Assembly: GCA_030038695.1 (NCBI GenBank)
Contig: JASHSN010000586.1
Coordinates: 1 to 17,815 of the forward strand
Direction of reading: 5' to 3'
DNA length: 17,815 nt
From: Nitrososphaeraceae archaeon
GTDB lineage: Archaea > Thermoproteota > Nitrososphaeria > Nitrososphaerales > Nitrososphaeraceae
The notes under the pieces were generated by a model. That model saw only the letters and a list, made by a program, of their open reading frames with translations. It was not told where the DNA came from and ran no database searches. How positions within the stretch are numbered: the first letter of the stretch is position 1; the number at the start of each line of letters is the position of its first letter. Below are positions 373 through 14,961 of the stretch, in pieces. The position numbers and the translations under genes are program-made.

Positions 373-1557
373 TTAATCAAATGGCGATAGTTTTCGTAAC
401 TCCTCCACCGCTTTCGACAAGATCGAAACCGCTTGATCTATTTCTACCTTAGTGTTCATTATGCCAATACTAAGGCGGAGAGATCCAGTTGATTCCGCAT
501 ACGAGAATCCCATTGCCTTCAGAACATGGGATGACGTCTGATTTCGTGACGAACAAGCGGATCCTGTCGATGCAGCGATCCCAAGTTCGTCGAGCTTAAT
601 GATTAGATCTTCTCCGTTGACTCCAAAAAGAGTGAAATGTGCAATATTGGCAATCCTATTTTGAGTGGAGCAGTTTAGACGAGAATTAGGTACTTCATGC
701 AAGACTCTATCGATCAAATGGTTTCTAAGTGCTGAAACCTTTGTTTCGTATTCCCCCATTCGTTGTGCAGCAATTTCGCAAGCTTTTCCAAACCCTACGA
801 TTCCATGTACGTTTTCAGTACCTGATCTGAGAGTTGATTCTTGACCTCCACCATGAATTATTGCAGCTATTTTCAAAGCCTCACGTTTGTATAATGCTCC
901 TACACCCTTCGGTCCATTAATCTTATGTGAAGACATCGAGAGAAGATCTACTCCAAGCTGTTTGACGTCGATACGAATTTTCCCGACAGCCTGAACAGCA
1001 TCAGTGTGAAATAATCCTCCTTTCTGATGAGTGACTCTTGCGAGTTCACTGATACGTTGTATTGTACCTACTTCATTATTGGAAAACATTATGCTCACCA
1101 GCGCTGTTCTATCGTTTAATATTCGTTCTAGATCTGTCGTTTCGATCTGTGCCTCTTTCGTCACTGGAAGGTATTCCACTTCGAATCCCTTTCCCTCTAG
1201 ATCTCTAAAGGCTTCAAGAATGGATTCGTGTTCCATTGTACTAGTTATAATGTGTTTTTTTTCTGGATTCGTTTTTCGAACAAGATCTGCAACCCCTTTG
1301 ATTGCAAGATTATTAGCTTCAGTTCCTCCTGACGTAAAGATTACCTCACTCCTATTGCATCCAATCAGAGAAGATACGCGTGTTCTAGCTTTCTCAATCG
1401 CTCGCATCGTCATCCTTCCAAATCTATGCAAAGAGGACGGGTTCCCATAATGTTCTTTAAGATAGGGCAACATTTCTGTCATCACCTCGTCTAACATTGG
1501 CGTCGAAGCGGCGTTATCTAGGTAGATGGGAAACGGGACAGAATCTGAAGAGGACAT
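373..1557 (-). CDS. Cysteine desulfurase, NifS/IscS family
   Basis: This is a 394-residue PLP enzyme that takes sulfur from L-cysteine as an enzyme persulfide, leaving alanine. Visible hallmarks are the N-terminal LDNAASTP segment, SGGTEANN, TMEHES with the PLP-stacking histidine near residue 110, HTDAVQ with the cofactor aspartate at 186, SSHKINGPKG with the Schiff-base lysine at 212, RSGTEN, and GSACSS with the catalytic cysteine at 335. The length is normal for the family. The ATG start lies 2 nt after the larE stop, so the gene is probably cotranscribed with larC and larE. Family members usually feed Fe-S assembly or tRNA thiolation. The position here suggests it also supplies sulfur, directly or through an Fe-S cluster, to LarE. 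That role is inferred; the enzyme assignment is secure. Confidence 0.95.
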   Translation of the reverse strand: MSSSDSVPFPIYLDNAASTPMLDEVMTEMLPYLKEHYGNPSSLHRFGRMTMRAIEKARTRVSSLIGCNRSEVIFTSGGTEANNLAIKGVADLVRKTNPEKKHIITSTMEHESILEAFRDLEGKGFEVEYLPVTKEAQIETTDLERILNDRTALVSIMFSNNEVGTIQRISELARVTHQKGGLFHTDAVQAVGKIRIDVKQLGVDLLSMSSHKINGPKGVGALYKREALKIAAIIHGGGQESTLRSGTENVHGIVGFGKACEIAAQRMGEYETKVSALRNHLIDRVLHEVPNSRLNCSTQNRIANIAHFTLFGVNGEDLIIKLDELGIAASTGSACSSRNQTSSHVLKAMGFSYAESTGSLRLSIGIMNTKVEIDQAVSILSKAVEELRKLSPFD

Positions 1558-1559
1558 CT

Positions 1560-2369
1560 TTAGTTTTTAATCAAAGCAAGATTTCTAGTGCGATATCCTC
1601 TTGCATCTATCGAAACATATTTGAAGCCAAGCTTCTTCAAATGCTCGTCTAGGATTTGTAATTTCGTTACATCAAACAGTTGGGGAAGTTCTTCCCTGTA
1701 AACTTCTATTCTTGCAACGTCCCCATGATCTCTAACTCGAACCTGACGTACATCAAAAAGTGTTTTTACAATGATCTCTGATTGTTCGATTCTTGCTAGT
1801 TTTTCATATGTAATTGTCATTCCTTTCGGAATGCGCGACGCTAGACACGAATTTGAAGGTTTATCATGTACTGAAAGTTTGAATTTTCTCGCGATTGCAC
1901 GAATTTCTTCCTTGGATATAGCTAATTCACGCATTGGACTCTTCACATTACTTTCCTCAAACGCTCTAATTCCTGGCCTATTGTCACTAAGATCATCCAA
2001 ATGAATGCCATCCACAATGACATTTGCGTCCATTTCAAGGGCTTCTTTTGAAAGTCTTCTAGCCAGTTCCTTTCGACAGTGATAACATCGCAGCTCATCA
2101 TTTTTCGCAAACTCGGGATTTGCCACCTCGTCGTATTTAATCAATTTATGCATGATCCCTATCTCTCTAGCGACGACAATAGCTGCAGACAACTCTTCAT
2201 TCGATAGTGTTGTATAATTTGCCGTAATGGCTATGGCATTATCTCCTAGAGCTTTTCTTGCAGCCAGTGCAACCACAGCACTGTCGACCCCTCCTGAGAG
2301 CGCGACAACTACTCTACCGCCATGTTCTGAAAACCATTCGAGGAGCTCTTGAAAACGATCTGTCCCCAA
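1560..2369 (-). CDS. larE: LarE, sulfur insertase for the nickel-pincer nucleotide
   Basis: LarE is an ATP-dependent PP-loop enzyme that activates pyridinium-3,5-biscarboxylic acid mononucleotide by adenylylation and converts its carboxylates to thiocarboxylates. The 269-residue product has the PP-loop SGGVDSA at 25-31, RCYHCRKEL with Cys95 and Cys98, and PSNSCLASRIP with Cys175. Cys175 is at the position of the sacrificial cysteine of the Lactobacillus enzyme. These are the only three cysteines. A CxxC pair plus this third cysteine is the pattern expected of LarE enzymes that hold a [4Fe-4S] cluster and transfer its extra sulfur, so turnover may be catalytic rather than sacrificial; this is inferred. 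The start is TTG, 6 nt after the larC stop, and the gene sits directly before a cysteine desulfurase. Other PP-loop families such as ExsB or TtuA fit less well because of the PSxxCLASR motif. Confidence 0.93.
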   Translation of the reverse strand: MGTDRFQELLEWFSEHGGRVVVALSGGVDSAVVALAARKALGDNAIAITANYTTLSNEELSAAIVVAREIGIMHKLIKYDEVANPEFAKNDELRCYHCRKELARRLSKEALEMDANVIVDGIHLDDLSDNRPGIRAFEESNVKSPMRELAISKEEIRAIARKFKLSVHDKPSNSCLASRIPKGMTITYEKLARIEQSEIIVKTLFDVRQVRVRDHGDVARIEVYREELPQLFDVTKLQILDEHLKKLGFKYVSIDARGYRTRNLALIKN

Positions 2370-2375
2370 CGTTCT

Positions 2376-3623
2376 CTATCCGCCATTTATTTTGGAAGTT
2401 ATTTGCGCACTCACTAATTCTAGGGCTTTCTTGACTGAAATTGCAGTAGTCGTAGCGATAAGCTTGACATCTTCGAATTCAGGTTTAATACTTGTAGCTT
2501 CAGCGTTTAATCCCCTGGCAATTTTAACGCGCACATTGAAGTCGTAGCCGCAAATATTGACTGGAATTGTTACAATACTTCTAGGAAGAATGAATCGCCG
2601 TATCTCTTGGAATCTTGCACCGATTGTACCTGTCTCCCTAAAGAGAATTGTCAACACATCGTTTAAGTTCGCCTGATCACATATAATTCTAATCAAATGT
2701 GCGGGTCTATTTTTCTTAGCTATCCCAGGTATTGCAATTATGTCCTTCACATGTCCTGCAGATAATTGTTCTATCAAATTCCCGATAATCTCTCCAGAGA
2801 TATCATCAACAACACTCTCTATAAGGCAGCTGGTTTCTCTATATGCGTCGTTGACCATGGGCTGCTCGCCTATTATGAATCTCAAGATGTTTGGAATATG
2901 ATCTAATGTTTTCTGTCCTGCACCGTAGCCTATGCTTAAAGGCGTAAAAGTTGGGTAGTAGCTAATGGTTCCAGAAGCAAGATTAACTAAAAGGGCAGCG
3001 CCAGTCGGAGTTGTTAACTCTTCGGCAACCTGACCGCCGCAGAGTATGAAATGCCTACCTTTAAAAATTTCAAGAATGGCATTTGTAGGGTTCGGTACGT
3101 TTCCATGTGAGAACGTTGTTGTTCCTCCTCCTACTGCGACTTTTGTAGAAAATATCCGACCTTCGAACAGTTTCAGATCTTGTATAGCTGTTGCGCAACC
3201 GATTAAATCAGCAAAAGTGTCAATACTAGATGTTTCATCTAAATTTACATGATCAATTTCTTCCCCATGAATGAATGCCTCGGCGGCAATGAGTGTTCTG
3301 AGACATTCGAGAGCAAATACCTTGGCACGCTGCTCTAGATCGAGGGAATCACAACAGATACCCAGCGATCGGTACATCTCCATTCCTCTGCGGTGATGTT
3401 TATTATCTGTGTAATCCAATTTAAATGCCATAGCAGAGAACCCATGAGATATGGTTTTCAAGAAGCTGGCGCTCCTGATTTTGCTTCCCCTCAAAAAATC
3501 TTGACATGCGAATATCGAATCTATGATCTTATGTTCGTTTGCTCCTGCACCAACTAGGCTAGCCAATAACATGTCACCGGATATCCCTGAATTTTGAGAA
3601 TCAACTATTGCTATCTTGGCCAA
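2376..3623 (-). CDS. larC: LarC, nickel insertase for the nickel-pincer nucleotide
   Basis: LarC is the CTP-dependent cyclometallase that inserts nickel into the dithiolated nucleotide to complete the cofactor. The 415-residue product carries family landmarks in order: SGISGDMLLASL near the N-terminus, DHVNLDETSSIDTFADL, GGGTTTFSHGNVPNP, ELTTPTGAALL, and GYGAGQKTLDHIPNILR, followed by the C-terminal metal-binding domain. It is one continuous frame, unlike the Lactobacillus gene, which needs a programmed frameshift to join LarC1 and LarC2. The start is TTG at 3623-3621 (TTG GCC AAG). A TATA-like AT tract is centred about 29 nt upstream, so the transcript is probably leaderless. It heads a minus-strand unit larC-larE-cysteine desulfurase and is divergent from the malate dehydrogenase gene. 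Confidence 0.93.
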   Translation of the reverse strand: MAKIAIVDSQNSGISGDMLLASLVGAGANEHKIIDSIFACQDFLRGSKIRSASFLKTISHGFSAMAFKLDYTDNKHHRRGMEMYRSLGICCDSLDLEQRAKVFALECLRTLIAAEAFIHGEEIDHVNLDETSSIDTFADLIGCATAIQDLKLFEGRIFSTKVAVGGGTTTFSHGNVPNPTNAILEIFKGRHFILCGGQVAEELTTPTGAALLVNLASGTISYYPTFTPLSIGYGAGQKTLDHIPNILRFIIGEQPMVNDAYRETSCLIESVVDDISGEIIGNLIEQLSAGHVKDIIAIPGIAKKNRPAHLIRIICDQANLNDVLTILFRETGTIGARFQEIRRFILPRSIVTIPVNICGYDFNVRVKIARGLNAEATSIKPEFEDVKLIATTTAISVKKALELVSAQITSKINGG

Positions 3624-3646
3624 GGATAGGGGATGATTCTTATGTC

Positions 3647-3658
3647 AATATAATATTT
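3647..3658 (-). promoter_or_regulatory. TATA box for the larC-larE-desulfurase unit
   Basis: A 12-nt all-A/T tract lies about 29 nt from the larC TTG start. This is the archaeal TATA-to-start spacing of a leaderless transcript. It sits in the 96-nt divergent region shared with malate dehydrogenase. The assignment rests on sequence and spacing only. Confidence 0.5.
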
Positions 3659-3719
3659 GCCTGGACTGGAAATGCTCCTCGGAAAACTATTTACAATGTG
3701 TGAACTAATTTCCTTTAGA

Positions 3720-4634
3720 ATGACAATCACGATAATTGGTTCAGGAAAAGTGGGCGCATCTATCGCTTTGAACTGTGGAATGCGAGATTTAGATGACTTG
3801 ATATTAATCGATATTGTACAGGGGCTTCCCCAAGGTGAGGCTATGGACATAAATCACCAATTGGCCGAAATGGGGATAGATCGGTCGGTACGCGGTAGCA
3901 ACAACTATGCTGATATGGTTGGCTCTAGTATTGTCGTACTCGTAGCCGGGTTGGGAAGAAAACCTGGTATGACCAGAATGGATCTGTTACAGACCAATGC
4001 CAATATTATAAGGGAAGTATCAATGAAAGTAGCATCCTATACAAAGAGTGCTAAATTGATTGTGGTGACAAACCCTCTTGACCCTATGACTTATCTCGCA
4101 CTGAAAACAACAGGAATGAACAAAGACCAGGTTATGGGGATGGGTGGTCTCTTGGATTTATCTAGATTTAAAAACTTTATTCGAGAAAGTACAAATGTAT
4201 CAAGTGAATCGATTCATGCAATGGTCATAAGTGAGCATGGTGAAAATATGCTGCCGCTTACCAGATTTTCTTGTATTAGTGGAATACCTCTCAGCGAATT
4301 TATTACCGATGAAGTCCAATCTCGGATCTTTGAAGCCACTCGTAAAGTGGCTGCTGACGTGATCGCGTTAAAAGGCGCTACCATTTATGCACCCGGCAAT
4401 GCTGTGGCAACTATGGCCGAGTCAATAATAAAGGACAAAAAGTCTGTGATTCCAGTATCTGCACTCCTGATGGGTGAATACGGTGCGAGGGACTTATGCA
4501 TAGGAGTTCCGACCATCCTTGGTGAAAAAGGCATAGAAAAGATAATAGAGCTCAGGCTAAATGATACTGAACGCGAAATATTCCATAGAGGAATGAACAG
4601 CGTTGCCGAAGCGATAAGGGTAATTATGCATTAA
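3720..4634 (+). CDS. mdh: NAD-dependent malate dehydrogenase (LDH/MDH superfamily)
   Basis: The enzyme oxidises (S)-malate to oxaloacetate with NAD, or runs in reverse. From the ATG at 3720 it is 304 residues and begins directly with the Rossmann strand MTITIIGSGKVG. This start is preferred over upstream in-frame ATGs because those add 21 residues before the first beta strand, and because an AT-rich CTATTTACA is about 29 nt upstream. The acid at residue 31 after the second strand favours NAD. GRKPGMTR supplies Arg80 and Arg86; arginine at the second site is the malate-type substrate residue, where lactate enzymes have glutamine. VTNPLDP, LLDLSRF (Asp146, Arg149) and SEHGENM (His173) complete the catalytic set. 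It lies between the larC promoter and larB, suggesting that the NPN-dependent client acts on malate or a related 2-hydroxyacid. Confidence 0.9.
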   Translation: MTITIIGSGKVGASIALNCGMRDLDDLILIDIVQGLPQGEAMDINHQLAEMGIDRSVRGSNNYADMVGSSIVVLVAGLGRKPGMTRMDLLQTNANIIREVSMKVASYTKSAKLIVVTNPLDPMTYLALKTTGMNKDQVMGMGGLLDLSRFKNFIRESTNVSSESIHAMVISEHGENMLPLTRFSCISGIPLSEFITDEVQSRIFEATRKVAADVIALKGATIYAPGNAVATMAESIIKDKKSVIPVSALLMGEYGARDLCIGVPTILGEKGIEKIIELRLNDTEREIFHRGMNSVAEAIRVIMH

Positions 4635-4672
4635 ATTTTTTATTCTAATATCCCTTTGTCTTCCATGACGAC

Positions 4673-5464
4673 ATGGATCTAAAAGATATTTTGCAACAAT
4701 TTGCAAAAGGTGAACTTGATCTTTCTGAGGCACAGAAACAAATATCTATACATTCCATAGAACACGTAAAAAATAATATTGCGAAATTGGATATTGGCAG
4801 AGACCTTCGGAAAGGAGTACCTGAAGTAGTCTTCGGTGAAGGGAAGGATTATCGAGATATCATAAGAATAGTACTGTCAGCAGTTAAGATCAAAGGAAGT
4901 GTAGTAGTGAGTAGAATTCGAAGGGAAGAACTGCCAATGATTTGTAAGGCTCTAAAAGATAAGAATAAGCATGTCCAAATAGGAAAGAGGAGTACGACAA
5001 TTCTGGTTAAGGATAAGCTTAAGGCCAGTGGGCGGACAGGCGGCAAAATTGGAATTCTATCTGCTGGAACGTCAGACATGGGTGTGGCTGAGGAAGCCCG
5101 TTTGACGGCTGAAGCAATGGGATGCGTCGCGATTGTTCATTATGATGTAGGAATTGCAGGGATGCATAGGCTGCTCCCTGCTATGGAGGATATGATCTCG
5201 GCAGGTGTTGGGGCAATAGTCGTAGTTGCAGGGATGGAAGGTGCTCTTGCGTCAGTAGTGTCTTCAATGGTGAATGTACCGGTAGTAGGTGTCCCAACTT
5301 CAATAGGCTACGGATTTGGCTCGGCAGGTATTGGAGCCCTTTCATGTATGCTCCAGAGCTGTGCATTAGGTCTTGCGGTCGTTAACATAGATAATGGTGT
5401 AGGAGCCGGTGCATTCGCAGCGCTGATCGCTAACAGAGCTGGCGAAAAATTATACAACAGATAA
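4673..5464 (+). CDS. larB: LarB, pyridinium-3,5-biscarboxylic acid mononucleotide synthase
   Basis: LarB carries out the first committed step of nickel-pincer cofactor synthesis: it carboxylates the pyridinium ring of nicotinate adenine dinucleotide and hydrolyses the phosphoanhydride, releasing AMP. The 263-residue protein has the usual N-terminal helical segment, with LDIGRDLRKGVPEVVFGEGK around residues 39-58. A PurE-like (AIR carboxylase) domain follows from about residue 124 with ILSAGTSDMGVAEEA, HYDVGIAGMHRLL, VVVAGMEGALASVV and VVGVPTSIGYGFG. Length and order match the family. It starts 38 nt after malate dehydrogenase; an AT-rich stretch at 4631-4644 could be its own promoter. With larC and larE it completes the three-gene synthetic set within 4 kb. 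Confidence 0.93.
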   Translation: MDLKDILQQFAKGELDLSEAQKQISIHSIEHVKNNIAKLDIGRDLRKGVPEVVFGEGKDYRDIIRIVLSAVKIKGSVVVSRIRREELPMICKALKDKNKHVQIGKRSTTILVKDKLKASGRTGGKIGILSAGTSDMGVAEEARLTAEAMGCVAIVHYDVGIAGMHRLLPAMEDMISAGVGAIVVVAGMEGALASVVSSMVNVPVVGVPTSIGYGFGSAGIGALSCMLQSCALGLAVVNIDNGVGAGAFAALIANRAGEKLYNR

Positions 5465-14022: not shown

Positions 14023-14190
14023 AGCCATGTCAAAAAGGCATGCTTGTGGTGCTAGGTTAAAAGTTGGAACAACTTCGTATGTTTGATAGTAGTATGGTAT
14101 ATCCTCAAGATCGGATAACGTAATAGTGCACCTAGAATAAGCGACACAATGATGCCCCTTTGTTATCGAATAATCATATATACTACCAAT

Positions 14191-14200
14191 TTTAAATATT
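14191..14200 (+). promoter_or_regulatory. TATA box for the short-chain dehydrogenase locus
   Basis: TTTAAATATT is centred about 27 nt before the ATG at 14222, consistent with a leaderless transcript. An intact archaeal promoter in front of a frameshifted gene suggests the break is recent or a sequence error. Confidence 0.5.
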
Positions 14201-14221
14201 CAAAGATACTGTCGGTATCAT

Positions 14222-14961
14222 ATGACTCAAGAAAAACGACTTGAGGGAAAGATTGCGGTCATCACGGGCGGAAATAGCGGCATAGGCCTTGCAACTGCAC
14301 AGCGGTTCGTCCAAGAAGGTGCCTTTGTTTTTATCACCTTCGCCGCCAGGATGAGCTCGATAAAGCGGTCAAGCAGATTGGCAGAAATGCCATGGGTGTT
14401 CGGGGTGACGTCTCAAATCTAGCAGATCTTGATAGATTGTACGCCACGGTGAAGCAGCAGAAGGGAAAGATCGATGTCCTCTTCGCAAACGCCGGCATTT
14501 TTGAAAATGCATCATTAGGATCAATTACTGGATCCCATTTTGACAAAATATTCAGCGTCAATGTGAAAGGGGTGTTATTTACAGTACGAAAGGCGCTTCC
14601 ATTGTTTCAGGATGGTGGTTCTATCATTCTAATTGCTTCGGTCGCAGGTTCCAAAGGCTTCGAGGGCAGTACTGTCTACAGTGCGACCAAGGCTGCTATA
14701 CGATCCTTTGCACGTTCCTGGACTGTTGATATGAAAAACCGTAAGATCCGGGTCAATGCCATTAGTCCCGGTGTGATAGAAACACCTATGTCTGCGGAAC
14801 TCAGCGAGCAGCTGAAGAATATCCTAGTGAGCACGGTCCCTCTGGGGCGGATGGGAAGACCTGATGAAATCGCCAAAGCCATAGCGTTTCTTGCATCCGA
14901 TGACAGTAGCTATATCACAGGTATTGAACTGTTTGTAGATGGGGGTTTAGCACAAATCTGA
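14222..14961 (+). pseudogene. Short-chain dehydrogenase/reductase (SDR) with a -1 frameshift
   Basis: Two frames together form one classical SDR of about 246 residues. The first (from ATG 14222) has the cofactor loop [16 protein letters not shown] and runs to VFIT. The second continues as [44 protein letters not shown], the catalytic YSATK (Tyr and Lys), and ISPGVIETPM, ending in the usual FVDGGLAQI. One base is missing near 14339-14340, where the family would have a glycine codon between VFIT and RR. Read to its own end, the first frame stops at 14422 without the active site. The gene may be a recent pseudogene or carry an assembly error, because the rest is intact. GRR after the second strand would favour NADP. 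It resembles bacterial broad-specificity SDRs and probably was acquired; the substrate is unknown. Confidence 0.85.

Follow-up and report, generated by a model that had tools for sequence, protein, structure and literature searches.

A conserved archaeal lar locus with an adjacent cysteine desulfurase probably supplies nickel-pincer nucleotide to a protein outside the canonical LarA family

To our knowledge, only LarA-type enzymes use the nickel-pincer nucleotide (NPN) cofactor. The 17,815-nucleotide stretch of archaeal DNA analyzed here (the window; contig JASHSN010000586.1, our G000:C151) carries, within positions 373 to 5464, genes for the NPN-synthesis proteins LarB, LarC and LarE together with a NifS-type cysteine desulfurase and a malate dehydrogenase (MDH). 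Our interpretation, to which we assign a probability of about 0.68, is that this locus makes NPN by means of LarB, a NifS-fed LarE of the [4Fe-4S] type and LarC, that the cofactor is used by a protein outside the canonical LarA enzymes, and that the MDH is an ordinary one. A non-canonical user is most likely because no LarA with cofactor-binding residues was found in the lineage. The window belongs to a 3.75 Mb genome of 679 contigs (78.5% complete, 5.1% contaminated), and because its LarC is 79% identical, among the matches listed (the best 80 of 584 confirmed LarC stretches), to those of Ca. Nitrosopolaris wilkensis and one Nitrososphaeraceae metagenome-assembled genome (MAG), we regard the host as a member of the Nitrososphaeraceae of the ammonia-oxidizing type (ammonia-oxidizing archaea, AOA). 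Our survey of the class covered 250 genomes, including the host's own; the labels f1 to f19 denote families as lettered in this analysis, f1 being that of the window, and 31 genomes from f1, f2 and f3 make up our single-contig set.

Open reading frames (ORFs) and family models confirm the layout given by the initial annotation, namely five genes in two divergent units, with minus-strand nifS, larE and larC facing plus-strand mdh and larB and with gaps, calculated from the coordinates, of 2 nt between nifS and larE, 6 nt between larE and larC and 38 nt between mdh and larB:

373 to 1557, minus strand: NifS-type cysteine desulfurase (Aminotran_5 and TIGR03402 match)
1560 to 2369, minus strand: LarE, three-cysteine CxxC-C type (TIGR00268; cysteines C95, C98 and C175; PP-loop SGGVDS)
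2376 to 3623, minus strand: LarC, the nickel-inserting protein (one ORF containing both the LarC1 and the LarC2 domain)
3624 to 3719, no strand: divergent larC/mdh intergenic region, from the larC start to the likely mdh ATG at 3720
3720 to 4634, plus strand: MDH (PRK06223), in an ORF open from TTG 3657
4673 to 5464, plus strand: LarB (NF033503; C230 opposite L. plantarum LarB Cys221)

Family models recognize all five genes, NifS below its strict equivalog cut-off. Since homology to MDH sets in near residue 21 of ORF 3657-4634 (+), mdh more likely starts at the ATG at 3720, and about 96 nt therefore separate the divergent larC and mdh genes, an interval presumed to hold both promoters.

The three Lar proteins are each well supported. 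LarB scores 231 bits against NF033503 (cut-off 175) and keeps a cysteine, C230, in alignment with Cys221 of L. plantarum LarB, which we take to be the catalytic residue. LarE scores 266 bits against TIGR00268 (cut-off 150), has the P-loop SGGxDS, and contains three cysteines, C95, C98 and C175, that are invariant in all 10 aligned homologs. LarC is a single unbroken ORF in which the LarC1 and LarC2 models score 139 bits (cut-off 90) and 107 bits (cut-off 50), respectively. In T. maritima LarE, the cysteines of the CxxC-C pattern are described as binding a [4Fe-4S] cluster, and the enzyme turns over when given IscS and cysteine (PMC9283937); from the cysteine pattern, the window LarE is predicted to be of this type. 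Together, these data support the original assignment of an archaeal NPN-synthesis locus. In the pathway that we propose, LarB would carboxylate and hydrolyze nicotinic acid adenine dinucleotide to pyridinium-3,5-biscarboxylic acid mononucleotide, NifS would take sulfur from cysteine and pass it to LarE, and LarE, with its three-cysteine [4Fe-4S] cluster, would insert that sulfur catalytically to give pyridinium-3,5-bisthiocarboxylic acid mononucleotide. LarC would then insert nickel to yield NPN, to be used by a protein outside the canonical LarA enzymes, and the MDH would be an ordinary malate dehydrogenase long co-inherited next to larB.

The desulfurase matches Aminotran_5 (E=2.4e-84) and retains TGSACSS (C335) and SHKINGP (K212), which we take to be the catalytic-cysteine loop and the motif of the pyridoxal phosphate-binding lysine. 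Its best NCBIfam match is TIGR03402 at 473 bits, under the equivalog cut-off of 530.75; because this cut-off is missed, as it is in all 36 genomes tested, we name the protein only as a NifS-type desulfurase. A NifS-type match of at least 440 bits is present in 30 of the 31 single-contig LarBCE genomes (G046 has none), and best scores reach just 140-166 bits in the three LarBCE-negative genomes tested (G096, G169 and G008). In f2, nifS adjoins larE in 12 of 13 regions, with a one-base overlap between the larE and nifS BLAST matches in 11 of the 12. The tracking of LarBCE genomes by nifS, its position next to larE and this overlap point to a coupling of NifS to LarE. A sulfur-donor role for the desulfurase, whose company with larE the initial annotation had picked out, also fits the LarE type, because LarE shares its three-cysteine pattern with the desulfurase-fed T. 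maritima enzyme (PMC9283937). Desulfurase supply of LarE is reported in vitro, the enzyme used being that of E. coli, and the T. maritima desulfurase genes are described as lying far from larE (PMC9283937), in contrast to the 2 nt that separate the two genes in the window; the larE-nifS pairing gives genetic support for a desulfurase as the natural sulfur supplier of LarE of the [4Fe-4S] type. In 20/40 regions, all from f1, f3 or f5, a gene that by eye resembles a peroxiredoxin (L039:11170-11667 and equivalents) is located near nifS; no such gene was found in the window.

Gene order across related archaea is strongly conserved, which answers the possibility, raised with the first description of the locus, that the neighborhood might be shared by no relative. 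Within a first set of 40 regions from 39 genomes, in which only sufficiently long regions were counted and larC and larE coordinates were lacking for G133, the arrangement was kept for larC-larE in 35/38, larE-nifS in 33/35, mdh-larB in 31/33 and divergent larC/mdh in 29/35. A second set, comprising 43 loci picked by title from the best 80 LarC stretches and overlapping with the first in some genomes, gave 37/38, 28/36, 29/31 and 29/34, respectively. The nifS queries included a protein from f6, so that in L069 this protein matches itself at 100%, and the nifS product of the f6 larE-nifS case is 28% identical to the NifS of the window. Since the outer flanks differ between families, with ribosomal-protein and secY genes after larB in f1 and other genes in f2, the conserved unit is the block itself. 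Two loci titled Bathyarchaeota, L197 (part of the second set) and L205, have the order larB-larC-larE, and neither mdh nor nifS was matched in them. In 13/13 f2 regions, larB shares its region with a protein of about 520 residues that looks, by eye, radical-SAM-like (L064:883-2457 and equivalents).

We found no Lar_N match in the host's own genome, in agreement with the absence of a LarA-type racemase that had been noted from the window. Across the 250 class genomes, matches over cut-off numbered 194 for LarC, 192 for LarB, 190 for LarE and 18 for Lar_N; LarB had 16 more matches under cut-off, for LarE, weaker PP-loop matches occurred in the remaining 60 genomes, and Lar_N had one weaker match. 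By hand count, as for all overlaps between family surveys (tallied from the listed rows), 182 of the 194 LarC-positive genomes are free of Lar_N. LarC is present in 35/36 genomes of f1 and Lar_N in 0/36, and LarB, LarC and LarE each occur in 31/31 single-contig genomes, again with Lar_N in 0/31. LarBCE also occurs in f5, and none of LarB, LarC and LarE is over cut-off in the 13 genomes of f4. We also searched 41 genomes with a class LarA profile built from seven LarA proteins (threshold E<=10), whose reach possibly leaves out GntE1-like proteins, and 35 genomes with PF21113 (LarA_C). The class profile gave eight matches in the 31 single-contig genomes, seven of which fall on a divergent LarA homolog that we call LarAX, as judged against LarAX coordinates in all but G082 and G185; the eighth, in G113, spans 44 residues at E=0.018, which is chance level. 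The host's genome and 31/31 single-contig relatives thus have LarBCE and no LarA with NPN-binding residues that we could find. LarA-bearing f2 genomes fall in genera g28 and g35, a restriction that agrees in kind with a report of LarA among AOA only in the sediment clades NP-theta, delta and iota (PMC8397731), and soil AOA MAGs are said to lack lactate racemase (PMC11131427).

The initial annotation had called for a LarA-family search of the genome, and its outcome is nearly an empty one: the sole LarA-superfamily protein found is the degenerate homolog LarAX (G000:C56:2122-3177, L115). In 18 of the 25 genomes tested from f2, PF21113 matches this protein of about 360 residues, in most cases with a score under the family cut-off. 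A LarAX profile matches the malate racemase Mar2 (E=1.2e-5) and a lactate racemase apoprotein (E=8.7e-5) in the PDB, and hhalign gives 98.8% probability over 360 columns, indicating full-length homology to LarA. We aligned 33 of the 225 matched LarAX proteins with eight LarA proteins, taken from 12 fetched loci with L024, L026, L027 and L032 left out. Row 3 of alignment A1 lacks the C-terminal end and has an N-terminal extension. The column of Lys184, the NPN lysine, holds Lys in 0/32 rows, and the histidine columns are likewise lost (His174 in 1/32, His108 in 0/29, His200 in 1/33). In view of these missing residues and of the occurrence of LarAX in genomes without LarBCE, we reject LarAX as a hidden normal LarA.

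LarAX might nonetheless use NPN by binding it in some way that dispenses with the usual lysine and histidines. Its homology to LarA spans the full length, it has a match in 225/250 genomes, usually as a single copy, and some LarA features persist, with Asp in 16/32 rows at the Asp72 column and Arg in 4/32 or Lys in 10/32 at the Arg75 column. It also occurs, however, in f4, f11, f13, f15 and f17, all of which are without LarBCE. Among the columns kept at 85% or more in LarBCE-positive lineages (18 rows) there is no His and no Cys, and the single Lys column is equally kept in the LarBCE-negative rows (14 rows), so no column marks a new NPN site. The invariant pieces DPLFG, WN and LP suggest that LarAX has another function. 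By its description, LarAX is probably the published group LarAH12, an AOA protein of the LarA superfamily without NPN-binding and catalytic residues; Desguin and colleagues describe the refolded Ca. Nitrososphaera gargensis LarAH12 as showing no activity with NPN on the substrates that they tried and set aside groups 12, 13 and 16 because these residues are missing and the groups may not be LarA homologs (PMC7583248), a doubt that our profile comparison, which supports LarA homology for LarAX, does not share. We regard LarAX as an unlikely user of the cofactor. The LarAX entry P0043 is named a nickel-dependent lactate racemase by JGI and is likely an annotation trap; given this name, some published AOA lactate racemases, of which PMC10579303 reports an example, may be LarAX.

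In the initial annotation, the locus was proposed to serve a conventional LarA-family racemase of malate or another 2-hydroxyacid whose gene would lie in another part of the genome. Roughly one fifth of the host's genome is missing, and 12 of the 194 LarC-positive genomes do carry a Lar_N match, one of them weak. Lar_N was nonetheless found in 0/31 single-contig relatives and in 0/36 f1 genomes, in the 31 the LarA profile at E<=10 yielded nothing but LarAX and a single match at chance level, and LarAX lacks the cofactor lysine and catalytic histidines; the proposal is therefore not supported, and we hold it to be very improbable. DUF362, which belongs to the same Pfam clan as Lar_N (PMC11770544), was considered as a hidden NPN user and rejected: it occurs in just 2/35 genomes, and the match in G128 is that genome's true LarA.

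Several observations weigh against our preferred interpretation of an NPN locus with a user outside the canonical LarA enzymes. Apart from the LarC-positive genomes with a Lar_N match and the 78.5% completeness of the genome in which none was found, the absence of LarA is a result of profile searches, in which PF09861 (Lar_N) matched just 2/14 control genomes and missed C. glutamicum despite its published LarAH19 homolog, and the nearly universal LarAX could still bind NPN in another way. Furthermore, larE stands without an adjacent nifS in G046, G115 and 8/36 titled loci, so that another desulfurase presumably serves LarE where nifS is not its neighbor. Lastly, NPN production, NifS as the donor and the existence of a non-LarA user are inferred from the genes.

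The MDH scores 364 bits against PRK06223 (cut-off 283) and retains GSGKVG, which we take to be the NAD motif, as well as RKPGMTR, DLSRF and SEHGE, presumably the motifs that carry Arg, Asp and His in malate dehydrogenases. All six single-contig f1 genomes contain one Ldh_1_C gene, which is the locus copy; a second is found in 6/11 f2 genomes tested, and one is present in 6/6 f4 genomes tested, where there is no lar locus. In the MDH tree, linked genes from f1, f2 and f3 and an f5 gene from another contig form one clade (100/100) with f4 outside, and the enzyme looks like a vertically inherited housekeeping malate dehydrogenase. The idea of the MDH as a dedicated partner of the pathway is weakly supported: its linkage to larB is real, yet is no proof that malate is the substrate, and the gene is single-copy in f1 and persists in f4 without LarBCE. 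As an NPN partner, the MDH is weakened by the single-copy status in f1 and by the tree. That the MDH is itself the NPN-dependent enzyme, as its linkage to larB in 31/33 regions might hint, we consider to have next to no chance, because the NAD and Arg/Asp/His motifs are retained and the protein is kept in the six f4 genomes without LarBCE.

Comparison with known systems places the AOA locus among LarA-less LarBCE sets, which are reported from about 15% of genomes analyzed, many cyanobacteria included (PMC11796402). Like AOA, cyanobacteria have a complete NPN-synthesis set, mostly no LarA-like protein and a proposed other user, and production of functional NPN is described for the LarBCE of Synechocystis PCC 6803, which lacks LarA (PMC11796402). 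AOA are a different lineage, in which a single block unites these genes with nifS and mdh and in which LarBCE is kept in 31/31 single-contig f1-f3 genomes. The Synechocystis result also bears on whether the product of the archaeal LarBCE is a nucleotide related to NPN but distinct from it, for instance nickel-free or containing a different metal, or whether these enzymes have some other role. Seven class genomes carry LarA without LarBCE, so the two can part; on the other hand, the three enzymes stay together with their key residues kept, and functional NPN is the product of the Synechocystis set, which is divergent; we find this alternative decidedly doubtful. In L. plantarum, the lar operon shares the LarB, LarE and LarC chemistry, but its LarE relies on a single sacrificial cysteine and LarA is the enzyme that the operon supplies (PMC9283937, PMC7583248), as opposed to three cysteines and no LarA found in AOA. 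Haloferax volcanii, for which a nickel-pincer enzyme has been suggested, likewise has archaeal LarBCE homologs (PMC8305020), with no Lar_N match in our control genome; its genes (HVO_0197, HVO_2381 and HVO_0190) are not all adjacent, and the available passages of that report mention no desulfurase or MDH partner.

Our literature search, outside which most subscription papers fell, turned up no paper that we recognized as naming AOA as a LarA-less LarBCE case. The AOA locus is a new, lineage-wide instance of a known puzzle and not a new kind of system. The presence of LarBCE in 31/31 single-contig genomes without Lar_N implies a second class of NPN user, and cultured AOA, some of which have small genomes, are a place to look for it. 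We lean slightly toward a broader view, in which most AOA outside f4 would depend on a non-LarA NPN enzyme of a new class that acts in core metabolism, with the adjacent NifS as the main sulfur source. If true, this would predict a need for nickel in AOA beyond urease.

Three minor observations concern other genes. Lar_N matches without LarB, LarC or LarE over cut-off occur in G001, G005, G009, G013 and G017 (f13), G027 (f18) and G203 (f11), and these genomes either have LarA without the cofactor pathway or are missing contigs. In f7, LarA forms the C-terminal portion of an ORF of 655-669 residues (L029:748-2712, L030:745-2751) whose first part resembles, by eye, a cytidylyltransferase. In the window itself, positions 14024-14961 encode a short-chain dehydrogenase that is split by a frameshift or an assembly error, ORF 14392-14961 being without the N-terminal part, which is readable upstream in another frame.

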